Part shown: positions 24,364 to 42,548 of the stretch, piece by piece
How the letters are laid out: each line of letters starts with the position of its first letter
Position numbering within the stretch: the first letter of the stretch is position 1
Assembly (NCBI RefSeq): GCF_029504655.1
Contig: NZ_JAQFIL010000001.1
Span: 7,598,001 to 7,662,000 of the forward strand
Direction of reading: 5' to 3'
From: Catalinimonas alkaloidigena
GTDB lineage: Bacteria > Bacteroidota > Bacteroidia > Cytophagales > Cyclobacteriaceae
Length of the DNA: 64,000 nt
Position numbers and translations under genes: made by a program
Notes under the pieces: generated by a model
What the model was told of the DNA's origin: nothing
Database searches by the model: none
The model's input: only the letters and a program-made list of their open reading frames with translations

Positions 24364-26742
24364 ATGAAAAAACAACTTTTTGGCTTACTGCTGTTCTTTT
24401 CATGTTTTGATGTATCAGCTCAGTCCCCTGACATTAACCCTGAGCTTCTGCGTCATCAGTGGGATGCGTCCTGGATCACTCACCCTACTGCCCCACTCAC
24501 TACTTATGGCGTTTTCCACTTTCGCAACACTTTTGACCTGCCAAGCCAGCCAGCCTCGTTTGTAGTACATGCTTCAGCCGATAATCGTTACCGTCTTTTT
24601 GTGAACGGTCAGCCGGTAGGTTTCGGTCCAGCCCGGGGGGATTTGTTGCACTGGCGTTATGAAACCTATGATATCTCCGAGCATTTGCAAGTGGGTAAAA
24701 ATGTGATTGCCGCTGTGGTATGGAATTTCGGTGAGGATATGCCCGTAGCACAGCATTCCTACTATACCGGCTTTATCCTACAGGGCAATACTGAGGCAGA
24801 GCATGTAGTTAACACAGGTGAGGGAGAATGGAAAGTAGTAGAAAATGAGGCTTATCAGCCGCTCACCCAGCAGGATTTTACAGTACTCGGTTACTATGCC
24901 GTAGGCGCTACCGATCATGTAGATGGAGAACAGTACCCCTGGGGATGGGAAGAAACAGCTTATAATGATGATGAATGGCTCAAGCCCAGAAACCTCAAAA
25001 GAGGAGCCCCCTACGGATTCCCTTACGGCTACGGAGATGGTGGTTACAACCTGATTCCTCGTAATATTCCGATGATGGAAGAATATGTAGAAAGGTTTAA
25101 AGAAATAGAACGTAGCGAAGGTAGCAGCGCCCCGGAGGGATTTATACAAGGAGAAGAAAGCTGGACAATTCCCGCCAATACCAAAGCCCGTCTGCTGCTG
25201 GACCAGACTTATCTGGTAGCCGGATATCCCGAGCTCAAACTGAGCGGAGGCGCGGGAAGCCAGATTAAGATCACCTATTCAGAAGCTTTGTATGATGAAA
25301 GTCGTCAAAAAGGAAACCGTGACGAAACTGAGGGCAAAAATATTATTGGTTATTACGATATTTTTGAAACGGATGGAGGAGATGACAGAACATTTCGTCC
25401 GCTCTGGAACCGTACCTATCGCTATGTACTGCTGGAAGTAGCGACGGAAGGCGATCCGTTAGAAGTACAGGACTTTTATGGTATTTATTCCAATTATCCC
25501 TTTGAAGAAAAAGCAATGTTCAGCACGAATGATGAGGTGACAGAAGACATCTGGGAAGTAGGCTGGCGTACCGCTCGCCTCTGTGCTACCGAAACCTATA
25601 TGGATTGTCCATATTATGAGCAACTGCAGTACATCGGAGATACGCGCATACAGGCATTAATTTCTCTCTATGTCTCAGGCGATGATCGTTTGATGCGCAA
25701 TTCTCTTATGCAGTTTGATCATTCGCGTGCGCCGGAAGGCATCACGATGAGTCGCTATCCTTCCGGACTGGCACAATACATCCCTCCTTACGCCCTCTTC
25801 TGGATTGCCATGGTGCATGATTACCATATGTACAGAGAGGATGAGGCTTTTATCAAAGAAATGCTGCCCGGGGTTGAGTCAGTGCTGACCTGGTTTGAAG
25901 ATCAGTTGGATAATAGCGGTCTGCTGGGTGGTTTGCTCTGGTGGAACTATGCCGATGCAGTTGAAGGCTTCAGCCGGGGGACACCTCCCGGAGCAGAGGA
26001 AGGGAATTCTATTTTGCTCACGCTTCAGTTTATCTATGCAGCAGACTATGCTGTAGAGCTTTTTGAAAGTTATGGTAAGTCCTACCTGGCGGACCATTAT
26101 CGGGAGCTGTCTGCTCAGATGAAAGAAGCAGTGATGGCGTTGGGCTATGATGATTCCAGAAAACTTATTGCTGAAACCCCCGAAAAAGATGCCTTCAGTC
26201 AGCATACTAACATTATGGCTATCCTGACGGATACGGCACCCGAAGAAATGCAGGTAGCCTTATTTGACAAGCTTGTAGCGGATACCAGCCTGGTACAGTG
26301 CAATATCTACTATCGCTTTTACCTGACTCGTGCTGCTAATAAAGTAGGTAAGGCAGACTATTTTGTCAATAATATGAGTACCTGGACTGACATGCTGGAA
26401 CAGGGCCTGACTACTTTTGCCGAGCATGAAGACAATACCCGCTCGGACTGTCATGCCTGGAGTGCCAGCCCCAACTATGAGTTTTTGGCTACTGTGGCCG
26501 GTATTATGCCCGGTAGTCCGCACTATGCTTCTGTACAAATTGCCCCGGCTTTAGGTTATCTGGATGAAGTTTCCGGAAGTACGCCCCACCCGCTGGGTAT
26601 GATAGAGGTAGACTTAGAGCGTAAGGGTGAAAAGGGAATACAGGGAACGGTTGATCTTCCTCAGGGGTTGAGTGGTACTTTTGTATGGAATAATAAAACC
26701 GTCAAACTCGGAGGAGGAAAGCAGGAAATTAAGCTTGAGTAA
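24364..26742 (+). CDS. Secreted GH78-family alpha-L-rhamnosidase
   Basis: 792 residues with a signal peptide (MKKQLFGLLLFFSCFDVSAQS). An N-terminal beta-sandwich (about 30-230, FVVHASADNRYRLFVNGQPV) and a second sandwich (about 240-380) precede the six-hairpin (alpha/alpha)6 catalytic domain (about 390-700) and a C-terminal beta domain (PHPLGMIEVDLER). The signature DCPYYEQLQYIGDTR replaces the classic DCPxREKLGWTGD but keeps a Glu and the GD; it marks a known GH78 subgroup. HEDNTRSDCHAWSASP contributes the second acidic residue. It should release terminal alpha-linked L-rhamnose in the periplasm to feed the isomerase upstream. Its 3' end overlaps a convergent gene by 14 bp. Confidence 0.92.
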   Translation: MKKQLFGLLLFFSCFDVSAQSPDINPELLRHQWDASWITHPTAPLTTYGVFHFRNTFDLPSQPASFVVHASADNRYRLFVNGQPVGFGPARGDLLHWRYETYDISEHLQVGKNVIAAVVWNFGEDMPVAQHSYYTGFILQGNTEAEHVVNTGEGEWKVVENEAYQPLTQQDFTVLGYYAVGATDHVDGEQYPWGWEETAYNDDEWLKPRNLKRGAPYGFPYGYGDGGYNLIPRNIPMMEEYVERFKEIERSEGSSAPEGFIQGEESWTIPANTKARLLLDQTYLVAGYPELKLSGGAGSQIKITYSEALYDESRQKGNRDETEGKNIIGYYDIFETDGGDDRTFRPLWNRTYRYVLLEVATEGDPLEVQDFYGIYSNYPFEEKAMFSTNDEVTEDIWEVGWRTARLCATETYMDCPYYEQLQYIGDTRIQALISLYVSGDDRLMRNSLMQFDHSRAPEGITMSRYPSGLAQYIPPYALFWIAMVHDYHMYREDEAFIKEMLPGVESVLTWFEDQLDNSGLLGGLLWWNYADAVEGFSRGTPPGAEEGNSILLTLQFIYAADYAVELFESYGKSYLADHYRELSAQMKEAVMALGYDDSRKLIAETPEKDAFSQHTNIMAILTDTAPEEMQVALFDKLVADTSLVQCNIYYRFYLTRAANKVGKADYFVNNMSTWTDMLEQGLTTFAEHEDNTRSDCHAWSASPNYEFLATVAGIMPGSPHYASVQIAPALGYLDEVSGSTPHPLGMIEVDLERKGEKGIQGTVDLPQGLSGTFVWNNKTVKLGGGKQEIKLE

Positions 26743-28007: not shown

Positions 28008-31000
28008 ATGCCAAATTCTTCAGAATTAATAAATACCTGTTTGAATGCTGTTGATTCAGGTATTTGTGTGATAGATCAACATGGAAACATTAAGCTTGCC
28101 AATGCTGCATTTGCAGCATTGTGTGAGATAAGCCTTGATAAAATAAGCAATAGTACTTACGAATCTATTCTGCCACAGGAAAAGTCTGGAGCCTTACTAA
28201 TTGAAGAACTAATCCAGGGTACTCGCAATGAGCTTGAAGAATGCAAGACATGGTGGAATACGCCGGAGCTGTACAAGTTTGTCCGGGGGCATGCGCAGGA
28301 TACAGTAGGGGATTTTGGAAAAGGGAGAATCATCTTATTAAAAGACATAAGCAAAGAAGTACATCAAAGGCAGCAGTTGCAATACCAATCCATCATTCTC
28401 GGCAATGTGCAGGATAGCGTAATAGTGACCGACAGTAGAGGAGTGATTACTTACTGGAATGATGCCGCTACTGAGCTTTTTGGTTATACCCGGCAGGAGA
28501 TGGTGGGGGGTAATATCAATAAGCTTAATCCCGCATTTAATGTAGATGACTTTATCACGAAAGCGGGTGGGAAAAAAGACTATTACCGCCGTAGGGACTG
28601 GCAGTATACCCGGCGAGACGGAAAAGAAGTATGGGCAGATGTTAAGCTCAGCATGTTATATGATGAAAATGGGTCCGATTTTATCGGATTTATAGGGGTG
28701 TCCAAAGATATCACCGAAAAGAAAAGGCAAGAGCAGGAGCTGGTACGGCGCAATAAAGAATTGGCCTCTCTAATTGAATCACAAACTAACTTTCTGGCAA
28801 GAGTTGACCTTGAAGGACATTATATTTTTGTAAACAAGCACTTTTTAGAAAGCTTCGATTACGATGAAAGTATTATAGGAAAGCATTTTTCTTCGGAAAT
28901 TCATCCCGACGATATTGAGAAATGCAGAGAAGGGATTCGCAGATGTATGGCCTATCCGGGGGTTGCTGTCCCTATTGAGATACGCAGGCCCAAGGGTGAT
29001 GGCTCTTATATTACCAACTACTGGGAGTTTACAGGAATTACAAATGAAGAGGGAGAAGTTGTAGAGCTTCAGGGGATAGGGTACGATATTACAGAGCGCA
29101 AAAGAACAGAAAATAAAGTTCATTATTTAAAAACTTTTAATGAGCTGTTACTGGAAATTTCTACCGGCCTGGTCAATTTGAAGTATCAGAACCTGGGAGC
29201 ACATATCATTGAGGCGCTGGGAGATGTTACTGAATTTACCGGCTTTGACAGAGCGATGATGTACTTGTTCAATGAAGATACTTCTGAAAGTGAGTTGCAG
29301 TATGAATACTGTGCGGCAGGTATCCCATCATCGCCACCGGAATCCCACAAATACCCCGCTGGTCCCTTTGTGTGGTGGAAAGAAAAGATCATGAACCTAG
29401 AGGCTGTAGAAATCTCTAACAAAGAAGGTCTGCCCGCAGAAGCTAAAAACACCAGACGGGAAATGGAGGCCTATGGTGTAAATGCCATGATCAGTGTACC
29501 AGTAGCCTATGAGCAGGAAGTGATGGGTTTTTTAGTCTTTCTTTCTATGAAGAAAGATAAATGCTGGGATTACGATGCAGTTACATTACTCAAACTATTA
29601 GGGTCAATTCTGGCCAATACACTGTATCGGGCCAGAACAGTCCTGGACCTGGAAGAAAGCCGTAACCGTTACAGGTTATTGGCAGATAATGTGACTGATA
29701 TGCTCATCAAACATGATCTTGATTTCAACATCACTTTTGCTACACCTTCCAGCAAAGAGATGATAGGATATCTGCCTGAAGAGCTGATTGGTAGTTCATT
29801 TGCCGAACTGGTGTATCCTGAAGATCACTATAAGATTATGAATCATGTACAGGAAGCACTGGACGGAAATCTTATTCGCTTTATCACTCGCCTGAAAAAG
29901 AAAAGTGGTGCGTATCTCTGGGTAGAGGCTAGTGCCAGAGCTTTTGACAATAATGGAAAAACAGAGCTCGTAGCTGTGATACGAGATATTCATACACAAA
30001 AGCTGATTGAGATAGAAAAGACAGAGCTTTTCCGGGAAACGCACACATTAAATGAAGAATTGAGGGCTAGTGAGGAGGAATTGAGGCAAACTTTAGACAA
30101 GACCGTAGAACTCAACGAACAGCTAGCCAACAATGAACGGAAATTCAAAGGGCTTATTGAGAAAAGCTTTGATGGCATCGTAGTATATGGTCCAGATTCC
30201 AGCATCAAATATATTTCCTCTTCAGCTACCCAGATTATTGGTTATACACAGGAAGAAGCATTGAAAATGAGCGGGAGGGATTTTATCTACCCTGCGGATC
30301 TGCCAGCAGCGGATGAAAAAATGAGTAGTCTGATTCAAAAACCAGGAGAGCGTGTATCTTTTGAGGTACGTAGCACCCGCAAAGACGGTAAAGTAATATG
30401 GATAGAGACACATATTACAAACTTACTGGGAGACCCTGCAATACAAGGCTTAGTAGCAAACTTTAGAGATATTACTGATAGGAAAAAAGCAGCTATAGAG
30501 CTGGAAGAAATCCGTATGTCACTCAATGTAGCGCAGAAAATCGCCAAGATAGGAAGTTGGGAACTGGAGCTGCCTGCAATGAAATCCTATATGTCGGAAG
30601 AGTTTTATAATCTTCTTGGTTTACAAAGAGATGAAACTCAAAAATCTGCGCTGAATTTTGTTGAGTTTGTTCACCCAGACGATAAAGAAAGGATACAGAC
30701 AGCTATTGATTTGATGATGCAGGCGCAGAAAGTCACTGATCTGGAATTTAGGATTATAGACAAAAAAGGACGACTTAAGTACGTAAGAGCACAAAACCGC
30801 TTAGTTACTGATGGACATGGAAAGGCTGTCAGAATTTTAGGCACTATTCAGGATATTACCAAAGAAACTGAACTGGAGCGTTTGCTGGAAGAGACCAGCA
30901 GACTGGCAAAAGTAGGAGGCTGGGAGGTCAACGTAATTACTAATGAGCTTATTTGGACTGAAGAAACTTATGCGGTGCACGAAGTGCCTTATGGAGAGGA

Positions 31001-32333
31001 GCTAGAACTAGAAAAAGGTATAGAGTTCTATCATCCTGAGGATCGTCCGGTGGTGGAAGAAGCACTGAAAAAAATGACAAGCACTGGCATAAAGTATGAC
31101 CTTGAGCTAAGAATTATCACATCCAAAGGTAACCTGAAATGGGTACGTACCACCGGTGGTATTGTAACTCAGGTAAATGGTAAGGTCATCAAAATCAGAG
31201 GGTCAATTCAGGATATTACAGAGCGCAAACTAAGAGAAGAAGAAGTAAAGAAGTATTCTGAGCGCCTTAGGCTGGCTGCAGAATCCGCGCAGATTGGTGT
31301 ATGGGATATGGATATTCAACAAGATATCCTGCGCTGGGATAGACAAACCTGCAAAATATTTGGAGTCAGTGAGAAGCATGTACAAGCTTCACTAGAGAAG
31401 CTGCGAACGCTTTTGTACCCTGAAGACAGAGACAGGATTCCTGACATAGAAACCCTCAAATCTATGCAAGGAGATAGTATAAACTTACAGTTCAGAATTA
31501 TCAAAGCAGACAGCAAAGAGATAAGGCACATTAAGTCTTCAGCTAAGGTGCTTTTTGACAATGAGCAGAATGCGGTGCGTATGATCGGAATTCATTGGGA
31601 TATTACTGCCCTCAAAGAAAATGAGGAACGTCTGCAAAAGAATAATGAAGAGCTCCGCAAAACTAATACGGAACTGGATTACTTTGTCTACAGTACTTCG
31701 CACAACCTGAGGGCTCCCCTCACTTCAGTAATGGGCATAGTAGATGTATTACGTGACGCTCGGTCTGAAGCAGAAAAAGGGCAGTTCATTGACCTGATCA
31801 GAAAGAGTATCTACAAGCTGGATGAGACGATACAGGAGATCAATGATTATTCTAAAAACTCAAGAGTAGAAGTACAAAAAGTACCGATAGACTTCAGGCA
31901 AATGATCAATACCATTGCAGAAAGTCTCTCTTTTATGGATAATGCCCGTAAGGTGAAGCTAGACCTGAAATATCCAGAGGAACTTGAGTTTTATTCTGAC
32001 ACGGGCCGGCTCAAAATCATATTCAATAATCTGCTCTCTAATGCAATCAAGTATAGCAATCCGGCCGAGGAAGATCCCATTATCTCGGTAAATGTAGAAA
32101 GCTTGGAAGAGGGGGTGCTTATTGAGATCAAGGATAATGGGATAGGCATCAAGAAGGAGTATCTGGATAAGATCTTTAATATGTTTTTTCGTGCTACCAA
32201 TCGGTCCAGTGGCTCAGGCCTGGGACTATACATTGTAAAGGAGGCAGTAGAAAAATTAGGCGGGGATATCAATGTAAAATCAGCCCCGGGTAAAGGGACT
32301 GATTTTAAAATACAACTACCAAATTTAAAGTGA
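28008..32333 (+). CDS. Multi-PAS/GAF sensor histidine kinase
   Basis: 1441 residues, with no membrane segment and no signal peptide, so a cytoplasmic sensor. In order: PAS (about 5-115), PAS (123-240, FIGVSKDITEKK), PAS (250-365), GAF (375-545), PAS (553-670), a coiled-coil linker, PAS (710-830), then three PAS_3-type domains (about 840-955, 960-1080, 1085-1205). A short coiled coil follows, then HisKA with His1232 in STSHNLRAPLTSVMGI, and HATPase with NNLLSNAIKYSNP, DNGIGI and GSGLGLYIVKEAV. There is no receiver domain and no regulator beside it, so it is an orphan kinase. GAF/PAS count suggests integration of several small ligands or redox cues. Confidence 0.93.
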   Translation: MPNSSELINTCLNAVDSGICVIDQHGNIKLANAAFAALCEISLDKISNSTYESILPQEKSGALLIEELIQGTRNELEECKTWWNTPELYKFVRGHAQDTVGDFGKGRIILLKDISKEVHQRQQLQYQSIILGNVQDSVIVTDSRGVITYWNDAATELFGYTRQEMVGGNINKLNPAFNVDDFITKAGGKKDYYRRRDWQYTRRDGKEVWADVKLSMLYDENGSDFIGFIGVSKDITEKKRQEQELVRRNKELASLIESQTNFLARVDLEGHYIFVNKHFLESFDYDESIIGKHFSSEIHPDDIEKCREGIRRCMAYPGVAVPIEIRRPKGDGSYITNYWEFTGITNEEGEVVELQGIGYDITERKRTENKVHYLKTFNELLLEISTGLVNLKYQNLGAHIIEALGDVTEFTGFDRAMMYLFNEDTSESELQYEYCAAGIPSSPPESHKYPAGPFVWWKEKIMNLEAVEISNKEGLPAEAKNTRREMEAYGVNAMISVPVAYEQEVMGFLVFLSMKKDKCWDYDAVTLLKLLGSILANTLYRARTVLDLEESRNRYRLLADNVTDMLIKHDLDFNITFATPSSKEMIGYLPEELIGSSFAELVYPEDHYKIMNHVQEALDGNLIRFITRLKKKSGAYLWVEASARAFDNNGKTELVAVIRDIHTQKLIEIEKTELFRETHTLNEELRASEEELRQTLDKTVELNEQLANNERKFKGLIEKSFDGIVVYGPDSSIKYISSSATQIIGYTQEEALKMSGRDFIYPADLPAADEKMSSLIQKPGERVSFEVRSTRKDGKVIWIETHITNLLGDPAIQGLVANFRDITDRKKAAIELEEIRMSLNVAQKIAKIGSWELELPAMKSYMSEEFYNLLGLQRDETQKSALNFVEFVHPDDKERIQTAIDLMMQAQKVTDLEFRIIDKKGRLKYVRAQNRLVTDGHGKAVRILGTIQDITKETELERLLEETSRLAKVGGWEVNVITNELIWTEETYAVHEVPYGEELELEKGIEFYHPEDRPVVEEALKKMTSTGIKYDLELRIITSKGNLKWVRTTGGIVTQVNGKVIKIRGSIQDITERKLREEEVKKYSERLRLAAESAQIGVWDMDIQQDILRWDRQTCKIFGVSEKHVQASLEKLRTLLYPEDRDRIPDIETLKSMQGDSINLQFRIIKADSKEIRHIKSSAKVLFDNEQNAVRMIGIHWDITALKENEERLQKNNEELRKTNTELDYFVYSTSHNLRAPLTSVMGIVDVLRDARSEAEKGQFIDLIRKSIYKLDETIQEINDYSKNSRVEVQKVPIDFRQMINTIAESLSFMDNARKVKLDLKYPEELEFYSDTGRLKIIFNNLLSNAIKYSNPAEEDPIISVNVESLEEGVLIEIKDNGIGIKKEYLDKIFNMFFRATNRSSGSGLGLYIVKEAVEKLGGDINVKSAPGKGTDFKIQLPNLK

Positions 32334-32339
32334 AAAGGG

Positions 32340-32375
32340 GGCCGTACCCCTGCTCAAATGAGCGGTGATACGGCC
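32340..32375. terminator. Shared hairpin between convergent kinase and amine oxidase genes
   Basis: GGCCGTA pairs with TACGGCC, with an inner stem GCTCA/TGAGC, filling the 56-bp gap between the two convergent stops. On the minus strand it is followed by CCCCTTTTC, on the plus strand by no T-run. It more probably ends the amine oxidase transcript. Confidence 0.5.
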
Positions 32376-32389
32376 TTGGAACAACTCCC

Positions 32390-34456
32390 TCATTCACGCT
32401 CTCCGCTGGCAGGAGTTTTCTGCCCGCTTAAGTTTTTGTCAGGAGTAGCCTTTTTGGTAAGGCCATCAGGCATGCTTACCGGAGGTACTCCCAAAGCAGG
32501 ATTTTGCTCAAAAAAGCCGAAAGGAACCAACTGGAATGACATATACGCCCGGTTCATAATAGGCCAGTCCTCAGAGCGCACGATGTGGGTTTTACCCATC
32601 ACGTACCACAATACTACATCCGTGTTCTCAATATTTCTGTCCTGTTTTGTCCACTGAGGAAGTCCTTCCCACTTCTGGTTACTGGCAGGGTACATACCGG
32701 CAGGGTAAATCTCATCACGCTCATAAGGCGTTACCCAGAAATGGTTGTAAAGCACTTTAGCACGGTTTGAGAGAGAAGACCCTTCATGTGCCAATGGCGT
32801 AGTACCGGGAGAAGGCATCAGCACATAGCTAGGCATGCGGCCCAATGAGTCGCGCACACCGGGAGTCATGACTCTCCAGCGTCGGCTGGTGGTTTCATCA
32901 TTATTTCGTATGGCCTGCTTCTCTGTTTTCAGCATGGTGGGCTTGGCGATGATTACATTACGATAAGGATTTTCAGGACCGGCAGCAGGGCTTACATTAT
33001 TTACCTCGGCTACTGTATTGTGGGTGCCATCTACATCCATATCCAGGCGGAACACATGCCAGTGCTGGTGATTGTTAGCTTCCACATGTGGATAGACGGT
33101 TACTCCTGGATAGCTACCATCAATCATCTCTTCTTTATGAGTAGGCATATCGTCCGGACGCTCCACACTGCGGATGTGTACAATGCCCTGTAGCTCGTTA
33201 TCTACCTGAATCACACCATTCTCTTTAAAGATCCACTTAAACCCATAATCGTAATTACCGGCAGTGATATAGTATTTGATTGACAGGTCAGTAGCTCGGC
33301 GGGCATGCTTTTCATGTCTCCAGAGCGGACCTCCATATTCTTCGTAAATGGCTACCGCACTATCAATTTTTACAGGCTCACCATGATGTCCGTGTACGGT
33401 GGCATCGAGGTAAGTAGCGTTCTCAGGAGCATCGGAACCGGCGGTAAGCGGCCTGTTTTTGCTCTGGAAAAACCTGAACTCTCCTTGGTCAAAGTAGTTG
33501 TTGGTAGCATTAAGCAGGTCAGGTGATCCGTAGTTTACTACCATTTCCACAGCTGAGCCACGGTACATGATTTTGCGCCACTCTTTTTTGTAAGGGTCAA
33601 AAAACTGCACATCGTAAATTACCAGTCCTTCACGGTTATGGATGCCATAGCGAAGCTTCCAGTGAGGCGTGATGACCTGATTCCCCTGCAGCTCATAATT
33701 CACACCATCAGGTTGGCTGATCATCACCTGCTTCATAGGAGCGAGAGTAGGCTCCAGCTCATCGCCGTCAAAGTAGCCGGGGTCAGTAGGCTCATTCCAG
33801 CCTTTGCCTTCGTCAACGATCTTAAGCACTTTTTGGTCAGTAAGATCTACAAAAGCATAAAGTCCTCCCACCGGCACACGGCGGTATTTTTTGTTCTTGT
33901 AATATGGGCTGACAATTACTTCCCGATGTCCTTCGGGAGCGATACCCATATCGGCGGCAAAGTTACCATGCGCTTCAATAGAATCTACATTGATCCCTCT
34001 TTTCTCCAGAGCGGCCAGCCAGCTTTTGTCTTCAGCCAATATGTCGCTGGCAATAGAGTCTCTTTTAAAATGCCCAACCGGCTGCTTGTTTTCTACCGTC
34101 TCATAAGAAGTGATCTTTTTGTCATTCAGATTAATGATCGCTTCGGTGAGGGTATTGGTAGAATAATGGTAAAGAGCAGCAAAAGCTTCACGCACAATCG
34201 GCGAGCCGGGTTCCCAGGCTTTTACTTCAGCTTTTTCAGGCTCACGCAGATAAACCATGCTAAAGTAATGGCTGCTGTCATGCTGAATTTTCTTTTCTTT
34301 CAGCAGAATCTGTTTTACGAGCTTAAGTTCATTGGAATCCAGTGGATCCAGGGGGTGTTTGTATTCCATGCTGCTTTGTTGTGCCATGAGTTGTTGACTC
34401 ATGCCCAGCAGGCTGCATAGCGTAATCAGGCAAGTTGTCCAAAGTATCTTTTTCAT
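32390..34456 (-). CDS. Exported copper-containing primary-amine oxidase
   Basis: 688 residues with a signal peptide (cut near MAQQS, about residue 25). The cofactor motif is intact: TAGNYDYGFKW, with Tyr402 as the precursor of topaquinone. The catalytic Asp lies in YFDQGEF (about 323). Copper ligands are His463 and His465 in NNHQHWHVF and His624 in GKTHIVRSEDWPIM, and the family C-terminus NPALGVPP is present. The reaction oxidises primary amines to aldehydes, ammonia and hydrogen peroxide outside the cytoplasm. The short N-terminal part lacks an obvious copper-chaperone-like D1 domain. It starts 41 bp after a SusD gene and is the third gene of a SusC-SusD operon, an unusual partner for such importers. 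Confidence 0.93.
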   Translation of the reverse strand: MKKILWTTCLITLCSLLGMSQQLMAQQSSMEYKHPLDPLDSNELKLVKQILLKEKKIQHDSSHYFSMVYLREPEKAEVKAWEPGSPIVREAFAALYHYSTNTLTEAIINLNDKKITSYETVENKQPVGHFKRDSIASDILAEDKSWLAALEKRGINVDSIEAHGNFAADMGIAPEGHREVIVSPYYKNKKYRRVPVGGLYAFVDLTDQKVLKIVDEGKGWNEPTDPGYFDGDELEPTLAPMKQVMISQPDGVNYELQGNQVITPHWKLRYGIHNREGLVIYDVQFFDPYKKEWRKIMYRGSAVEMVVNYGSPDLLNATNNYFDQGEFRFFQSKNRPLTAGSDAPENATYLDATVHGHHGEPVKIDSAVAIYEEYGGPLWRHEKHARRATDLSIKYYITAGNYDYGFKWIFKENGVIQVDNELQGIVHIRSVERPDDMPTHKEEMIDGSYPGVTVYPHVEANNHQHWHVFRLDMDVDGTHNTVAEVNNVSPAAGPENPYRNVIIAKPTMLKTEKQAIRNNDETTSRRWRVMTPGVRDSLGRMPSYVLMPSPGTTPLAHEGSSLSNRAKVLYNHFWVTPYERDEIYPAGMYPASNQKWEGLPQWTKQDRNIENTDVVLWYVMGKTHIVRSEDWPIMNRAYMSFQLVPFGFFEQNPALGVPPVSMPDGLTKKATPDKNLSGQKTPASGERE

Positions 34457-34497
34457 AAAATTAGATAGATTAAGTGAATGAGTGATAGATTAAAATT

Positions 34498-35955
34498 TTA
34501 TTTGTCCCACCATACACGGGTGCTCATAAGGTCAGGGCCCTGTCGTGCGATGGCTTCATCGTAATTTTTTTTATTCAGGCTGATTTCTGAGAGCGGATAA
34601 CCTCTTCGGCGGGGAATGTCTCTTCCTGCGGCAGCATCAGGAGCAGGCAGCAGTTGAGGGTAGTCCAGTCTTCTCCATTCTGACCAGGCCTCCATACCCT
34701 GCATGTAAAGAGCAAACCACTTTTGGTTACCGATAGATGCTTTGTAATTGCTGGCATCAAAAGCGACCTCATCCTGTGCCAGGTAGGCTGCAAGATCAGC
34801 ATCTCCTACGTTCCACTGCTCAAAAGAGGCGGCAATGGCCTGCTCATATAACTGCTCGGCATCTTCACCAGTCCATCCCCGTGCCGCGGCTTCGGCTCTC
34901 AGAAAGAGCACTTCTGAATAAGTTTGCAGCGTAGCAGGGTAATCAGTGGAAGTAATCGCATCAGCAGGCAGCGATACTTCTTCATTTTTGATACTACCGG
35001 CAATGGCAGCATTGACACCATAAGGCATGCCCACATACTCACCCAAAGCGTCGGCTTCTTCCGCAAAGGCAGGGAGGCGAGGGTCATTCAGCTCCATTAG
35101 TTTGTCAATCATGGTATTGGAAACCGCCAGCGTAATGGTCTCCAGATGAAATTCAGTATACCAGGGGTTGACAAAAGGGACCTGCTCATTATAGGTGAAA
35201 GTAGCGTTTTGCGCATTGCTGGTAAATACACCCTTTTGTAAAGCATCAGCTACTACTGCCTGTCCAAGTTCAGGTTTGGCTTCTGAAAGGCGCATGCCCA
35301 GTCGCAGCCGTAAAGATTGGGCAAACAATTTCCACAGGGCCATATCTCCATCGTAGATGAGGTCTCCTTCAATACCTCCCGCTCCCTCGTCTATCTGTGC
35401 ATATGCTTCGTCCAGCTCCTGAATAATACCTTCATAGATTTGCTCCTGTGGATCATAGATGGGCGTGACATTTTCAGAGCCCAGCAAGGTTTGGCTGTAC
35501 GGAATATCGCCCCAGATATCGGTCAGGTTATGAAAGGTATAAGCCTTAAGAATACGGCTTACCGCTATCTGGTTCTGGTTAGGGCCGGAGAAAGCCGCCT
35601 GAACAGCAGTCTCAGGATTAGAGTTTTGCTCAATTACCTCTTGTAAATCCCTTAAGCTTTTATAGTATACAGGCGTAAAATCTCCTTCAATCGTAACATA
35701 ACGGTCTTCGGAAGTATAGAGGGTAGAAGTCCAGTGCTGCATATAGCGCATGCCGGTAAGGTTCCACTTAAACGACTCATTGTACAGGCCGAAGAGTTCC
35801 TCTATGAGCTTGGTCTGCGCCCCGGCAAGGATGTAGGAAGTAGGTACCTCCGTAGGATTATTGGGGTCCTCATTCATTTCCTCAAAGCCATCGTCACAGG
35901 CAGGCATAGTGGCTACCAAAGCAAAGATTAGTATAAATATAGGTAACTTTTTCAT
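34498..35955 (-). CDS. SusD/RagB-like outer-membrane lipoprotein of the amine oxidase operon
   Basis: 485 residues from the ATG at 35955 (MKKLPIFILIFALVATMPAC); the frame runs upstream to 36060 but that part overlaps susC. The lipobox Cys is about residue 20. The mature protein begins DDGFEEMNEDPNNPTEVP, the usual SusD-like_2 opening, and ends TRVWWDK. It should bind the ligand at the outer face of its SusC partner, whose stop lies 31 bp upstream. The absence of glycoside hydrolases and the amine oxidase immediately downstream suggest an amine-containing ligand, by inference only. Confidence 0.94.
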   Translation of the reverse strand: MKKLPIFILIFALVATMPACDDGFEEMNEDPNNPTEVPTSYILAGAQTKLIEELFGLYNESFKWNLTGMRYMQHWTSTLYTSEDRYVTIEGDFTPVYYKSLRDLQEVIEQNSNPETAVQAAFSGPNQNQIAVSRILKAYTFHNLTDIWGDIPYSQTLLGSENVTPIYDPQEQIYEGIIQELDEAYAQIDEGAGGIEGDLIYDGDMALWKLFAQSLRLRLGMRLSEAKPELGQAVVADALQKGVFTSNAQNATFTYNEQVPFVNPWYTEFHLETITLAVSNTMIDKLMELNDPRLPAFAEEADALGEYVGMPYGVNAAIAGSIKNEEVSLPADAITSTDYPATLQTYSEVLFLRAEAAARGWTGEDAEQLYEQAIAASFEQWNVGDADLAAYLAQDEVAFDASNYKASIGNQKWFALYMQGMEAWSEWRRLDYPQLLPAPDAAAGRDIPRRRGYPLSEISLNKKNYDEAIARQGPDLMSTRVWWDK

Positions 35956-35986
35956 GATGTTCTTTTTTATAGCAATAGCGCAGTGA

Positions 35987-38900
35987 CTATAATTTAATGT
36001 TAATGTTGAATCCGACAGAGCGCGTACTGGGGAGCTGAGAGTTTTCCAGTCCCTGCACATTACCTGAGCCTAAAGTAGTTTCGGGATCAACATGGGGAAC
36101 TTTAGAGTAGAGCAAAGCCAGGTTTCTGCCTACCAGACTGAAAGACACACCGCTTATCGGCATATTTTCAAGCATCCGCTGGGGAAGCGCCCAGCCAAAT
36201 CTCAGTTCGCGCAGCTTTATGAAGCTGGCATCAAAAACGCTGTATTCATCTATGCCGGTGATGTCTTTGAAGTAGTCCACCGCCTCTACGTATTGCTGAT
36301 TCTGCTCTCCGCTTTCCAGTATACCTTCAGCTCTTACGCCTCCCCCTTCATCTACCGGGCTACGCATAGGATTGCCAAGATCATTTAGGCCTACAGTCTC
36401 TTCAAGTAATCCGGCATATACTCCCACTGAGCGGGTACCGACAAAGAGGTCTCCGCCTTTTTGGAAGTCCACCAGTCCGCTAAGCATAAAGCCTTTGTAA
36501 GAGAAAGTACTGTTGACACCTCCGGTATAGTCGGCCATGACGTTGCCCAGGACTTTACCAAACTCACGGATATAGTAGCCCTCGTTGTCTACCAGTCTTT
36601 CTCCGTCTTCATTGGTGGCAAAACCATCGCCTACAATAGTACCGTAAGGCTCTCCGATACGGGCATTAATGGTAACCCTTTGGTCGGCCAGTTGATAGTT
36701 GTCCTGTCCATCTGCCAGGCTAACTACTTGGTTATTATTTTTGGCAAGGTTGAAGATCATTTCCCATACGAAGCCACTGCTGGTTTCAATGGGTACAGCG
36801 GTTAGCATAAGTTCAATGCCATTATTCGTCATCTCTCCGGCATTTACGATGTTAAACTGGCTCCCTGAAGTGCCGGAAACCGGAAGTTGGATGATCTGGT
36901 TGGTCGCTATACTACTGTAGTAAGTTGCGTCCAGGCCGATACGCCCGTTCAGGAATTGCATATCCAGACCAAATTCATAAGAGGTCGTAGTTTCAGGCTT
37001 GAGGTTGGCATTGTTAAGAATATCAGGAACAGTAAAAAGCGGAATGGTGCCGAAAGATCCGAAAGGCTCATAAATCTGGTACAACCGGTAAGGGTCAGTA
37101 TCGTTACCTACCCTGGCCCAGCCTGCGCGAAGTTTTCCAAAAGAAATGAGGCCTTTGTTAGAGATAAACTCAGAAAATACAAAGCTACCGGCGAATGAAG
37201 GGTAGAGGTACGAATTGTTATCTACTGGAAGCGTAGAGGACCAGTCATTTCTCAAGGAAGCATCCAGATACACAAAATCCCTGAAGCCCAGATTAACACT
37301 ACCATAGATACTGTTTACTTCCCGCTCCTGCGACATATCGGTAATGGTAGGGCGGTCTTTGGAGGCTTCCAGCGTATAGAAATAGGGAACACTTAATCCT
37401 CCGTTGGTCTTGCCATAGTTGCGGTACAGCGTCTGAATACGTCGGTTGGCCCCCAGGTTGGCTGCCAGAGACATGTTATCATTCAGGAAACGACGGTCAT
37501 ACTGGGCCAGTAATTCAAAATTGTTTTCACTGACCTTTCTCACATCTTCAGCATAAGAACTGATATTGACATGGCCTATTGGCGTCCATGCCTCACGGCG
37601 GTCGTCGTAGAAATCGGTACGGGCCCAGCCGGTAAGTTTGAGGTGGTCATTGAACTGGTAGGCGAGAGAGATGTTACCATATACACGCTCACGCATATCC
37701 TGGTTAGAAGCTTCCTGTAATTCCCAATAGGGGTTGTTCCAGTAAAAAGGCGTCAGGTTTTCAGGTCCGGAAAGATTCCACAGTCTTTGCAGCCCTTCCG
37801 GTGTGGTGGTTTGCTTGAGCCTGTCCATGTCAAGCTGGCGCTGAAACCAGGTGTTGAAGGAAGATTGTACACTCTGCGCACCGTCTCCGATATAATCACC
37901 GGTAACGGGTCTGCCATTTACTTTAGACTTCATGTAATTGAAGCGCACGCTGGTAGTAAGCTTATCAGTGATACTGGCATCAGCATTTACGCTAATGGTG
38001 TTGCGCTTCAGTTCACTATAGGGAAAAACTCCTTTCTGATCCAGATTGGTATATGATATACGCACGCTGGCGTTGTCACTACCCGCAGTAAGCGCTACAT
38101 TATTGGATAAGTTTACACCGGTTTCGTAAAAGTTTTTGATATTATCAGGCTGGGCTACCCAGGGGCGTAACTCCCCGTATTCAGGAGAGTTAGGGTAAAA
38201 ACTGTCCCAATGCCTTACCATTTGTCCATCCAGGATAGGTCCCCAACTCTCGTCAGCCTGAGTTGCTACCATGGGCTCACCATTATACATATCAAATACC
38301 TGCTTGTATCCCCCACCATATTCATTCTGATAGTCGGGCAGGATATACACTTCGCTGAAAGTAGTGTTGGAATTAATGCTCACCCCAATGCCATTGGTCC
38401 CCTTGCCGCTTTTGGTAGTGATCAGGATTACGCCATTGGCAGCCCGGGAGCCATACAGCGCTGCTGCGCTGGGACCTTTGAGTACAGATATGGATTTGAT
38501 GTCGTCGGGGTTGAGGTCCTGAGCGGCATTTCCATAATCTATACCACCATTAGCCGCCTGAGTGTCTTCTGAGTTGAAGTTAGAATTGTCAATGGGTGTT
38601 CCATCCACAACAAAGAGAGGCTGGTTATTCCCGGAAACAGAACTGGCACCCCGGATCAGGATGCGGGAAGAGCCTCCAATATTTCCGGCAGAACCAGCAA
38701 TTTGTACACCAGCGACTTTACCCTGTAGTGAGTTGACAATATTGGTTTCACGAGCTTCCTCCAGCCCCTGGGTATTGATTTCCTGTACTGAATAGCCCAG
38801 TGAACGTTCTTCGCGTTGGATACCCAAAGCGGTAACCACTACTTCTGAAAGCTGTTGTGCGTCAGTAATTAACTCAACATTAACAGTAGATTGGTTGCCG

Positions 38901-39193
38901 ATCGCTACTTCTTTACTAAGGTATCCGATGAAAGAAAAGACAAGTGTGCTGGCTTCTTCGCTTACACTAAGTGAGTATTTTCCATCTATATCAGTAACAG
39001 TACCGGTAGAGGTCCCTTTTACGATGACATTTACACCAGGCAGAGGGTCTCCTCCTTCGCCGCTTACCTGGCCGCTGATATTGGATTGTGCAAATAAGTG
39101 ATTTTGTAAGATTAGCAAGCTGAACAACAGAAGCCACCGGCTGCTGCCACAGTGGCCACTGCTAAAGAATAGGTAGTAGAGTTTTTTTTTCAT
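35987..39193 (-). CDS. SusC/RagA-family TonB-dependent transporter of the amine oxidase operon
   Basis: 1068 residues from the ATG at 39193 (MKKKLYYLFF), preferred over the frame start at 39223 because it directly precedes the signal segment LLLFSLLILQNHLFAQ. A regulatory beta-domain (GTSTGTVTDIDGKYSLS), the ELSEVVVTALG-like stretch QQLSEVVVTALG, a plug with VDGTPIDNSNFN and a barrel ending SVGFNINIKL follow in order. It forms the energised channel for the SusD at 34498-35955. The operon continues into the copper amine oxidase. The roughly 680-bp region upstream has no divergent regulator gene. Confidence 0.95.
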   Translation of the reverse strand: MKKKLYYLFFSSGHCGSSRWLLLFSLLILQNHLFAQSNISGQVSGEGGDPLPGVNVIVKGTSTGTVTDIDGKYSLSVSEEASTLVFSFIGYLSKEVAIGNQSTVNVELITDAQQLSEVVVTALGIQREERSLGYSVQEINTQGLEEARETNIVNSLQGKVAGVQIAGSAGNIGGSSRILIRGASSVSGNNQPLFVVDGTPIDNSNFNSEDTQAANGGIDYGNAAQDLNPDDIKSISVLKGPSAAALYGSRAANGVILITTKSGKGTNGIGVSINSNTTFSEVYILPDYQNEYGGGYKQVFDMYNGEPMVATQADESWGPILDGQMVRHWDSFYPNSPEYGELRPWVAQPDNIKNFYETGVNLSNNVALTAGSDNASVRISYTNLDQKGVFPYSELKRNTISVNADASITDKLTTSVRFNYMKSKVNGRPVTGDYIGDGAQSVQSSFNTWFQRQLDMDRLKQTTTPEGLQRLWNLSGPENLTPFYWNNPYWELQEASNQDMRERVYGNISLAYQFNDHLKLTGWARTDFYDDRREAWTPIGHVNISSYAEDVRKVSENNFELLAQYDRRFLNDNMSLAANLGANRRIQTLYRNYGKTNGGLSVPYFYTLEASKDRPTITDMSQEREVNSIYGSVNLGFRDFVYLDASLRNDWSSTLPVDNNSYLYPSFAGSFVFSEFISNKGLISFGKLRAGWARVGNDTDPYRLYQIYEPFGSFGTIPLFTVPDILNNANLKPETTTSYEFGLDMQFLNGRIGLDATYYSSIATNQIIQLPVSGTSGSQFNIVNAGEMTNNGIELMLTAVPIETSSGFVWEMIFNLAKNNNQVVSLADGQDNYQLADQRVTINARIGEPYGTIVGDGFATNEDGERLVDNEGYYIREFGKVLGNVMADYTGGVNSTFSYKGFMLSGLVDFQKGGDLFVGTRSVGVYAGLLEETVGLNDLGNPMRSPVDEGGGVRAEGILESGEQNQQYVEAVDYFKDITGIDEYSVFDASFIKLRELRFGWALPQRMLENMPISGVSFSLVGRNLALLYSKVPHVDPETTLGSGNVQGLENSQLPSTRSVGFNINIKL

Positions 39194-39869
39194 TACATTA
39201 GCATTTAAGTTGACTTGAAACAATACTCCCCTGTCATCTATGAGAATAGATGTGTTGACGCATGTGCAGGGAAAAGCTCAACTGAAGCCAGAGACGGTAC
39301 CAGCGTTTCTGGCTTTTATTTTTTTTGACCTGGGTTAATGATTATTTGAGCGTTGCAAAGCTTATATTCTGTAAAAACACGACATATATGGAGCTAAGTG
39401 GCTTTGCCTGAAAGATGATGTAATACCAGAACTTAGGTATTATTACCTGAAACTCTGTTTTGCAATATTAGGTTATAAGGCTTATTAATCAAATAAAATT
39501 TTGAATTTGATTTTAAATACAGTAAAAAAATCTAATATGTATATAAATTTAACAATTTTATTTTGATATATGTAAAAAGTGCTGATACTTTATCGTTTGG
39601 ATTGCTAATCTTTTATGTCCCTTATACTGGTATTTCTGTATGTAAATTGCTCTTCTTCGGAATTTGCAGTAAATTCATTTTGCCCTGCTATCTATTTTTA
39701 ACCCGATTGTGTTAATCCTGCAAATCATCATTAAGTATAGTTTGTATGTAGCGCTATGATAATGAAACTGGTCTCTACAGAGATATAATACGCAAAAAAG
39801 GGGTAACGCTATGGATAAGCTCAATGCGTGCAAAAAAGGCTTTTCCGCTTTCCCAACAAATTTTCAAAG
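39194..39869. other. Divergent intergenic region upstream of the amine oxidase operon
   Basis: 676 bp, AT-rich between 39440 and 39700. It includes two overlapping inverted repeats, TAATACC-N8-GGTATTA (39421-39442) and AGGTA-TTAT-TACCT (about 39435-39448), which could be operators for the susC promoter. No clean -33/-7 promoter pair and no coding-like frame was found. Confidence 0.4.
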
Positions 39870-41174: not shown

Positions 41175-42548
41175 ATGAGATACTTCACTACCACTCTCGT
41201 TCTAACATTATTTGCCAGTTTGTATTTTTCGCTATCCGCTCAATCTTTAAAAGTAAGCGATGACCAGCGTTACCTGCTTCGGGAGGATGGCACCCCTTTC
41301 TTCTGGCTAGGCGATACGGCCTGGGAACTTTTCCATCGGTTAGACCGTGAGGAGGCCAGCATGTATCTGGAGGATCGTGCCAGCAAGGGGTTTACAGTAA
41401 TTCAGGCTGTAGTATTGGCCGAACTGGATGGGCTGAATACGCCTAACCCATATGGTGATACTCCTCTGGCTAATAATGATCCTACACAACCCAATGAGGC
41501 ATACTTTGAGCATGTGGATTTTATTGTGGATAAGGCTGAAGATCTGGGCATATATATAGGTATGTTACCCACCTGGGGCGACAAGTTCAACAAGCGCTGG
41601 GGTGTAGGGCCAGAAGTCTTTACTCCTGAAAATGCCCGCGTTTATGGCAAGTTTTTAGGAGAAAGGTATCAGGATAAGCCTATCGTCTGGATACTGGGAG
41701 GTGATCGTATTCCTGAAGAAGATGAAGACTTTGCCATCATCAGGGCAATGGCTGAAGGTTTGGCTGAAGGAGATAATAACACTCACTTGATGACTTATCA
41801 CCCGATGGGCGGACGCAACTCGGCTGAATTTTTTCATGCAGATGACTGGCTGGATTTTAATATGTTTCAGTCAGGGCATGGAGAGATAGACAAACCTAAC
41901 TATCAGGTAACAAAGCATAACTATGCCCTGAACCCTGTGAAGCCTACTTTGGATGGAGAGCCCTGCTACGAAGATCATCCGATTAACTGGAAGCCTGAAA
42001 ATGGTTGGTTTGATGAAGACGATGTAAGGCAGGCCGCTTACTGGTCTATGTTGGCAGGAGCCTTTGGGCATACTTACGGTAACCATAACATCTGGCAGAT
42101 GTGGGAAGAAGGGCGAGAGCCCGTTTCCTCAGCACGTACCCCCTGGAAAGAAGCCCTGGATCATCCGGGAGCCTATCAGATGGGGTATATGCGGCAATTG
42201 TTTGAGTCTCGCGATTTTACTGAGCTTACTCCCGACCCTTCTTTAGTAGTAAGCAATGAAGGTGGGGATAAACATATCGCGGCAGCAAGAGGCACTGACT
42301 TTATGATGGTTTACCTTCCCTCCGGTGAGTCAGTAGAGATAGATGCCCGGAAAATATCCGGTAAAAAGATTAACGCCTGGTGGTTTGATCCCCGCACCGG
42401 CGACTCAGTAAGTCTGGGTAAATTTAAAAATAACCGTACCTATGCTTTCCGTACGCCTATCGCTGAGCGGGACTGGGTGTTGATCATAGATGATGCCAGC
42501 CAGACTTACTCTACTCCCGGTCAAACATTTTTCGGTATGAACGAGTAG
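41175..42548 (+). CDS. Secreted GH140-type (DUF4038) glycoside hydrolase
   Basis: 457 residues with a signal peptide (cleaved near SLSAQS, about residue 23). The N-terminal TIM barrel has the DUF4038 opening FFWLGDTAWELFHRL and continues with WGDKFNKRWG, PIVWILGGDRIPE and LDGEPCYEDHP, where the Asp of GGDR and the Glu of GEP are the likely catalytic pair. A small C-terminal beta domain (about 360-450, the DUF4038-associated domain) follows. The characterised GH140 enzyme of Bacteroides removes apiose-linked chains from rhamnogalacturonan II, which fits the other pectin genes here. The activity on this exact substrate is an inference. Confidence 0.87.
   Translation: MRYFTTTLVLTLFASLYFSLSAQSLKVSDDQRYLLREDGTPFFWLGDTAWELFHRLDREEASMYLEDRASKGFTVIQAVVLAELDGLNTPNPYGDTPLANNDPTQPNEAYFEHVDFIVDKAEDLGIYIGMLPTWGDKFNKRWGVGPEVFTPENARVYGKFLGERYQDKPIVWILGGDRIPEEDEDFAIIRAMAEGLAEGDNNTHLMTYHPMGGRNSAEFFHADDWLDFNMFQSGHGEIDKPNYQVTKHNYALNPVKPTLDGEPCYEDHPINWKPENGWFDEDDVRQAAYWSMLAGAFGHTYGNHNIWQMWEEGREPVSSARTPWKEALDHPGAYQMGYMRQLFESRDFTELTPDPSLVVSNEGGDKHIAAARGTDFMMVYLPSGESVEIDARKISGKKINAWWFDPRTGDSVSLGKFKNNRTYAFRTPIAERDWVLIIDDASQTYSTPGQTFFGMNE

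Follow-up and report, generated by a model that had tools for sequence, protein, structure and literature searches.

SusC/SusD (SusCD) loci of Bacteroidota are mostly read as glycan or peptide systems built on hydrolases or lyases. One example, the chitin locus of Flavobacterium johnsoniae, holds CusDII, a glycoside hydrolase family 20 (GH20) enzyme and nagB according to PMC5127042. Here, we analyzed a stretch of 64,000 nucleotides from Catalinimonas alkaloidigena (contig NZ_JAQFIL010000001.1, positions 7,598,001 to 7,662,000; called the window), in which genes for a SusC, a SusD and a copper amine oxidase (CAO) follow each other on the minus strand (Table 1). CAOs and SusCD are each already known, and a search of open-licence PMC papers returned none that joins them. 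Two candidates were rejected as SusCD-CAO loci: the 'amine oxidase' in PMC6987092 is flavin-dependent and belongs to a different gene cluster, and the CAO-domain protein listed in PMC5491611 comes from Veillonella. The three genes of the window probably form one operon and a dedicated uptake-and-deamination module for an amine-bearing ligand. SusD would capture this ligand at the cell surface, SusC would import it with TonB energy, and the exported CAO would oxidize its primary amine to an aldehyde (or ketone) with release of ammonia and hydrogen peroxide; the cell would then use the ammonia and the deaminated product. This proposal is based on the genes present, the intact catalytic residues, the conserved linkage, the co-phylogeny and the recurrence of a close CAO within an operon of amino-sugar type, while co-transcription, import, CAO activity and compartment are what we infer.

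The operon resembles Bacteroidota polysaccharide utilization loci (PULs) such as the chitin locus in that a SusCD pair is combined with an exported enzyme, and its SusD is nearest to CusDII (5j5u). Unlike in these loci, its sole enzyme is an oxidase. The three genes encode no glycosidase, lyase or peptidase, and the carbohydrate-active enzyme by which a PUL is recognized is absent from the SusCD operon; the rhamnosidase and apiosidase genes of the window lie on the opposite strand outside it. Nor is there an adjacent regulator, except for a convergent histidine kinase. The gaps of 31 bp (susC-susD) and 41 bp (susD-CAO) fold at 0 and -1.3 kcal/mol, with no hairpin in either, and the sequence 3' of the CAO gene folds into a hairpin of -29 kcal/mol (z -3.84; none of 200 shuffles was as stable). 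Coordinates and folding therefore bear out the order, spacing and terminal hairpin given in a preliminary description of the window, and its statement that no glycan- or peptide-degrading enzyme is present holds for the three genes. A scan for terminator-like sites marked positions 32351-32335, with 10 sites in the region against 7.1 expected. Sigma-70 sites numbered 12 against 12.3 expected, and a Bacteroidota-type promoter pattern had no match upstream of susC or at the susD end, which is uninformative.

SusC scored 649 bits with TIGR04056 (cut-off 368) and 64.5 bits with the signature model TIGR04057 (cut-off 46); an in-frame TTG at 39223 is a possible alternative start. Together with the adjacent SusD lipoprotein (400 bits with PF12771), whose Cys20 is invariant in 20 aligned SusDs, it has the hallmarks of a SusC/SusD import pair. 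The AlphaFold model of SusD has a mean pLDDT of 83.8, and by both sequence and Foldseek the nearest solved relative is 5j5u, a chitin-oligosaccharide binder (190.9 bits). Of the chitin-platform tryptophans of CusDII named in PMC5127042, W74 aligns with W75 of the window SusD and W330 with a glutamate, so that one of the two is kept (at an inferred numbering offset of 21). The net charge of SusD (-38) had suggested a cationic ligand; this idea was dropped, as the ranges of CAO-linked SusDs (-11 to -41) and CAO-less ones (+4 to -42) overlap and are uninformative.

SusC is clearly of the BT2263-2264 type, with BT_2264 as its best solved relative (463 bits; runner-up 159 bits), and PMC7782687 mentions a Bt2263/64-peptide complex. 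A peptide ligand is conceivable because this nearest relative of SusC belongs to a peptide-complex pair, a similarity seen in SusC. The pair would then import oligopeptides, and the CAO would deaminate lysine-like side chains or amines released from peptides, which an amidase gene near some SusCD-less CAOs (see below) would suit. We consider this unlikely. The window SusD scores higher against chitin- and glucan-binding SusDs than against BT2263, which reaches 118 bits and first appears at rank 41 in Foldseek; the operon carries an oxidase and no peptidase; and among the solved CAOs the nearest are of phenylethylamine type, with lysyl oxidases far behind (49.6 and 46.1 bits).

The third protein is by its domains (PF01179, 377 bits, cut-off 27; PF02727, 33 bits) and residues a topaquinone CAO, for which amine oxidation with peroxide release is predicted. 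The five active-site residues named in the preliminary description occur at exactly those numbers: Tyr402 (cofactor precursor), His463, His465 and His624 (copper ligands) and Asp323 (base). They are identical throughout two alignments of 18 and 23 CAOs, which have 14 rows in common, and agree with the motifs of the family (an N-Y-D/E-Y cofactor tyrosine, copper histidines and a catalytic aspartate). The N2 and catalytic domains and the five residues are shared with E. coli TynA and the Arthrobacter phenylethylamine oxidase. The nearest solved relatives are phenylethylamine oxidase and the copper amine oxidase 1d6u, presumably the E. coli enzyme, at ∼269 bits each. The window CAO differs from the TynA-type oxidases in being linked to SusCD, in scoring below the NCBIfam cut-offs (585 of 651 bits for PRK11504, 315 of 1278 bits for PRK14696) and in the lack of Paa genes over cut-off in its genome.

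These relatives, and a Tyr at gate position 321, would fit carbon catabolism of phenylethylamine or tyramine via phenylacetate, as in the TynA route of E. coli. We regard this as very improbable as a carbon route because PaaA/PaaC (PF05138) was not found over cut-off in any of the 10 CAO genomes in the count (2 of 18 others had it), a set that precedes seven later-found CAO genomes; the window's genome has a weak match below cut-off. Small amines would also hardly need a SusCD importer. That the hydrogen peroxide itself is the point, for antagonism or signalling, is hardly credible; peroxide is a product of CAO chemistry, and apart from the CAO itself no part of the three-gene set hints at such a role (no defence library was applied to the flanks).

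By eye, the window CAO, its close kin and the CAOs of phosphotransferase system (PTS) operons described below have ordinary-looking signal peptides, those of G251, G1203, G1161 and G024 have a short hydrophobic start ending in Cys, as in lipoproteins, and those of the rows with NagB and a major facilitator superfamily (MFS) protein have no visible signal. The export signal noted in the preliminary description is thus confirmed by eye, and its placing of the reaction in the periplasm is limited by the lipoprotein-like relatives. The location of the CAO seems to follow the type of transporter, which would fit a transport-then-oxidize logic.

Of the two outcomes by which the preliminary description would have its proposal refuted, the analysis covered loss of the triplet in relatives, and the proposal survived this half of the test: SusC, SusD and CAO occur in the same order and strand in several families. 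We counted 18 loci of this CAO group, the window included; 11 have this type of SusCD, one has an unrelated SusCD, two have a PTS operon and four have neither. Besides the window, the triplet is present in G372, G390, the metagenome-assembled genome (MAG) contig L003, G251, G024, G204, G1122, G1203 and G110. Beyond the window's own genus, it reaches a second genus of the same family, a Flammeovirgaceae MAG and three further families. The 11 also include L002, with SusD and CAO on a contig that begins inside SusD. SusD-CAO gaps are 3-75 bp in seven loci, 50 bp in G1122 and 17 bp in G1203, where a tandem of two diverged CAOs, separated by 20 bp, comes after SusC and SusD. In G110, CAO residues 31-232 follow SusD after ∼550 bp and run up to the contig end, and residues 499-663 lie on another small contig; the two are presumably pieces of one gene.

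Of 390 genomes of the order, 10 have a PF01179 match (nine over cut-off; the weak match of the tenth, G145, was dropped), as do 2 of 395 in a class draw and 14 of 395 in a phylum draw; the draws overlap and the window's genome is in all. Within the order, a CAO passes the Pfam cut-off in nine genomes: six carry the triplet (G000, G372, G251, G024, G204 and G110), and G188, G343 and G363 have a CAO without this SusCD. Because the triplet recurs in this way, chance adjacency is ruled out. Further searches added G390, L003, L002, G1122, G1203, G1161, G1166, G1210 and G1207. Close CAO relatives are present in 8 of 128 genomes of the window's family (E 1e-100) and in all three of its genus, and, at E 1e-80, in one of the 18 genomes in the family to which G204 belongs, one of eight in G024's family (where the split CAO of G110 falls below threshold) and five of 48 in G251's genus. 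The flanks of the triplet loci L016, L017, L018 and L003 are otherwise unlike those of the window: L016 and L018 give no more than weak matches (26-27% across 206 and 215 aa), and L003 has a single 39% match, whose window counterpart lies at a distance of 20 kb. A single joining event could underlie all triplets, and their adjacency might then be an accident inherited in one lineage. We give this next to no credence, as the triplet persists in four families and a MAG despite exchange of the flanks and an in-place swap of the CAO body.

CAO-linked SusDs form one clade (support 99/99; 10 of 23 tree rows), as do CAO-linked SusCs (97/97; 8 of 21 tree rows), and every row of these clades has a CAO. 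Related SusCD pairs outside have none beside them, in surroundings that are mostly not annotated. A close SusD is present in at least 41 of the 390 order genomes and a CAO in 10. The six genomes in which both occur are the linked ones and have the top six SusD scores, with at most four candidates scored per genome. Because of these clades and scores, possession of a CAO marks one lineage within this SusCD subfamily.

Relative to G372 and G390, the window SusC and SusD reach 85-88% identity but the CAO no more than 60-64%; compared with the MAG contig L003, identities are 78% for the CAO, 84% for SusC and 77% for SusD. In blocks of 30 columns, the first and the last two CAO blocks are closer to G390 (73, 82 and 100%) than to L003 (34, 43 and 40%), and all but one of the 21 middle blocks are closer to L003. 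To judge from these blocks, the window CAO looks mosaic, with an L003-like body and a signal peptide and C-terminal tail like those of the same-genus G390; recombination seems to have replaced the body in place while the ends stayed. The CAO tree rejects a clade of the window, G372 and G390 (approximately unbiased (AU) test, p 1.7e-72; the group was chosen after the identities were known), and the SusC and SusD trees do not reject the window with L003 (AU p 0.063 and 0.139). The trees agree in direction, and the mosaic rests more on the block identities than on them.

Since the 18 loci are split among this SusCD, another SusCD, PTS operons and neither, the link between SusCD and CAO is real and the CAO is a movable module. 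The other SusCD association, in G1161, has an importer unrelated to that of the window (SusC 25% identical, SusD of SusD_RagB type). In G1210 and G1207, the CAO gene is flanked by those for enzyme I (EI) and HPr in a PTS operon of the mannose family; in G1207, EIIA, EIIB and HPr were located. The same operon lacks a CAO in two sister species of this genus, G373 and G1201 (loci L135 and L136), where EI and HPr are neighbours. The PTS-operon CAO is 72% identical to that of G390, and the PTS CAOs group with those of G372, G390 and SusCD-less loci (97/94). The operon also encodes a NagB-like protein, over the Pfam cut-off and below that of TIGR00502 (137 vs 237 bits), and has a divergent glycoside hydrolase family 9 (GH9) gene. 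The best solved relatives of this GH9 score 417-404 bits against 28 for the next; its three best solved chains are named endoglucanase or endoglucanase-related, of which 6gdt and 5dgq are presumably the Vibrionaceae exo-glucosaminidases treated in PMC6096475. In its PTS parts, NagB-like protein and kind of GH9, the operon is like the Vibrionaceae chitin-disaccharide PTS locus with its GH9 glucosaminidase, described in PMC6096475; the window operon differs from it in having no PTS. Genes for a glucosaminidase-like GH9 occur in 5 of 17 genomes with a CAO and 4 of 52 without, a weak association among hand-picked genomes in which one of the five is the query source and another its congener, which shares the operon. 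Two of the other three, G1203 and G024, have GH9s 37-38% identical with no PTS genes beside them. In G373, the GH9 gene contains one stop. No CAO is known to us from the Vibrio chitin-disaccharide PTS locus, at which no search was aimed.

Two further CAOs, ∼35% identical to that of the window, belong to gene rows of G1210 and G1213 with the order TonB receptor, NagB, MFS and CAO; G1213 has a GH20-like gene upstream. Linkage of a CAO to NagB or an amino-sugar glycosidase was found only in these operons of G1210, G1207 and G1213, and neither among the window's three genes nor among the scanned neighbours. It is possible, though doubtful, that the Cytophagales-type CAOs include a mobile amino-glycan deamination module that slots behind whichever amino-sugar or amine-glycan transporter is present: SusCD, a PTS operon with NagB and glucosaminidase, or TonB receptor, NagB and MFS with a signal-less CAO. 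The window operon would be its outer-membrane form, and these CAOs would then act on amino-glycans, an activity not assigned to the family.

Our preferred, weakly supported, ligand class is an amino-bearing glycan or oligosaccharide carrying an amino sugar or an ethanolamine-type substituent with a CH2-NH2 group, which CAOs classically need. The amino-sugar option of the preliminary description gains indirect support from the two kinds of CAO-carrying NagB operon and from 5j5u as the relative of SusD. An amino-glycan or ethanolamine-type substituent is hinted at as a lead, not a result.

Several observations weigh against an amino-glycan ligand or a dedicated amine-ligand module. The amine of glucosamine is on a ring CH, not on a CH2; the closest solved relative of SusC, BT2264, comes from a pair for which a peptide complex is known; and the glucosaminidase-like GH9 (E 1e-60) was not found in the window's genome, G372, G390 or G1122. 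None of 13 CAO loci outside the order, which cover part of the phylum matches and include two on contigs below 4 kb, has a neighbour matching the window SusC or SusD. CAOs without this SusCD beside them occur in G188, G343, G363 and G1166, with amidase and PF00144 genes near, and same-type SusCDs occur in CAO-less genomes (G072, G207, G364, G049 and G180) and as a paralogue without an adjacent CAO in the window's own genome. A clade of SusCD-linked CAOs apart from SusCD-less ones is rejected (AU p 4.6e-5). The specific amine importer with deamination proposed in the preliminary description is partly supported, by the conserved triplet, the intact residues and the hairpin-free gaps, but a strict one-importer-one-enzyme view is weakened by the four of 18 CAOs without SusCD, the two of 18 in PTS operons and the close SusCDs in CAO-less genomes. 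The same counts would suit regulation as the only shared feature, with SusCD importing one nutrient and the CAO scavenging nitrogen from small periplasmic amines that arrive otherwise. We find this rather unlikely: the CAO-linked SusCDs form a clade of their own with a CAO in every row, unlike a loose grouping. If the uptake-and-deamination module is correct, a conserved SusCD operon with an oxidase as its only enzyme would broaden the concept of such loci to include oxidative release of nitrogen, offer a way into orphan SusCD pairs and indicate a CAO substrate that has yet to be assigned. Since several families contain linked loci and one genus has PTS operons both with and without a CAO, the question is directly testable.

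Table 1. Positions of the operon, its surroundings and the compared loci (window numbering unless a locus is named)
Feature	Position	Strand	Description
SusC/RagA-type TonB-dependent outer-membrane importer	35987..39193	-	1068 aa from ATG; TIGR04056, TIGR04057
SusD-like surface lipoprotein	34498..35955	-	SusD-like_2 subfamily; 485 aa; PF12771
Topaquinone-type CAO	32390..34456	-	with signal peptide; 688 aa; PF01179
Terminator-like hairpin	32325..32392	-	operon end, where the CAO and histidine kinase genes converge; by folding
Candidate structured leader (cis-regulatory leader RNA)	39225..39320	-	upstream of susC; conserved in the genus's three genomes
Multi-PAS histidine kinase	28008-32333	+	very large, 1441 aa; convergent with CAO gene
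Rhamnosidase	24364-26742	+	outside the operon
Apiosidase	41175-42548	+	outside the operon
PTS-NagB operon with CAO and GH9	L126 8452-17882; L127 8325-17842		CAO between EI and HPr
Second SusCD-CAO association (G1161)	L115 68-11626		extracytoplasmic function (ECF) sigma, FecR, SusC, SusD_RagB, CehA/McbA metallohydrolase, CAO
Triplet with tandem CAOs (G1203)	L128 8714-18183		SusC, SusD, two CAOs
Paralogous SusCDs (window's genome, G372)	L082 9480-14610; L086 2539-7637		small lipoprotein-like gene at the place of the CAO

Upstream of susC, a candidate leader of ∼95 nt has a mean column identity of 85% over three sequences (window, G372 and G390), against 60-73% further upstream. It can form three stems and a possible CCCTG/CAGGG pseudoknot (fold z -1.93). 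Its 16-base core was found a single time in the window and, among 138 loci, in the two of G372 and G390; matches in a scan with Rfam did not exceed chance level. FecR and sigma genes flank the loci of G251 and G1161, and that of G1203 is flanked by FecR and, by eye, a sigma-like gene. A relative of the multi-PAS kinase lies at the same place in G372 and G390 and not in the other triplet loci compared. At the SusCD-less CAO loci L020, L021 and L116 (rearranged in L022), a PF00144 serine hydrolase gene is upstream and an amidase nearby, which could release an amine substrate; the amidase of L022 is a fragment only, and a molybdopterin oxidoreductase is nearby in L020, L022 and L116. The small lipoprotein-like genes behind the paralogous SusCDs encode 110 and 116 aa, the one in L082 without a Pfam match.

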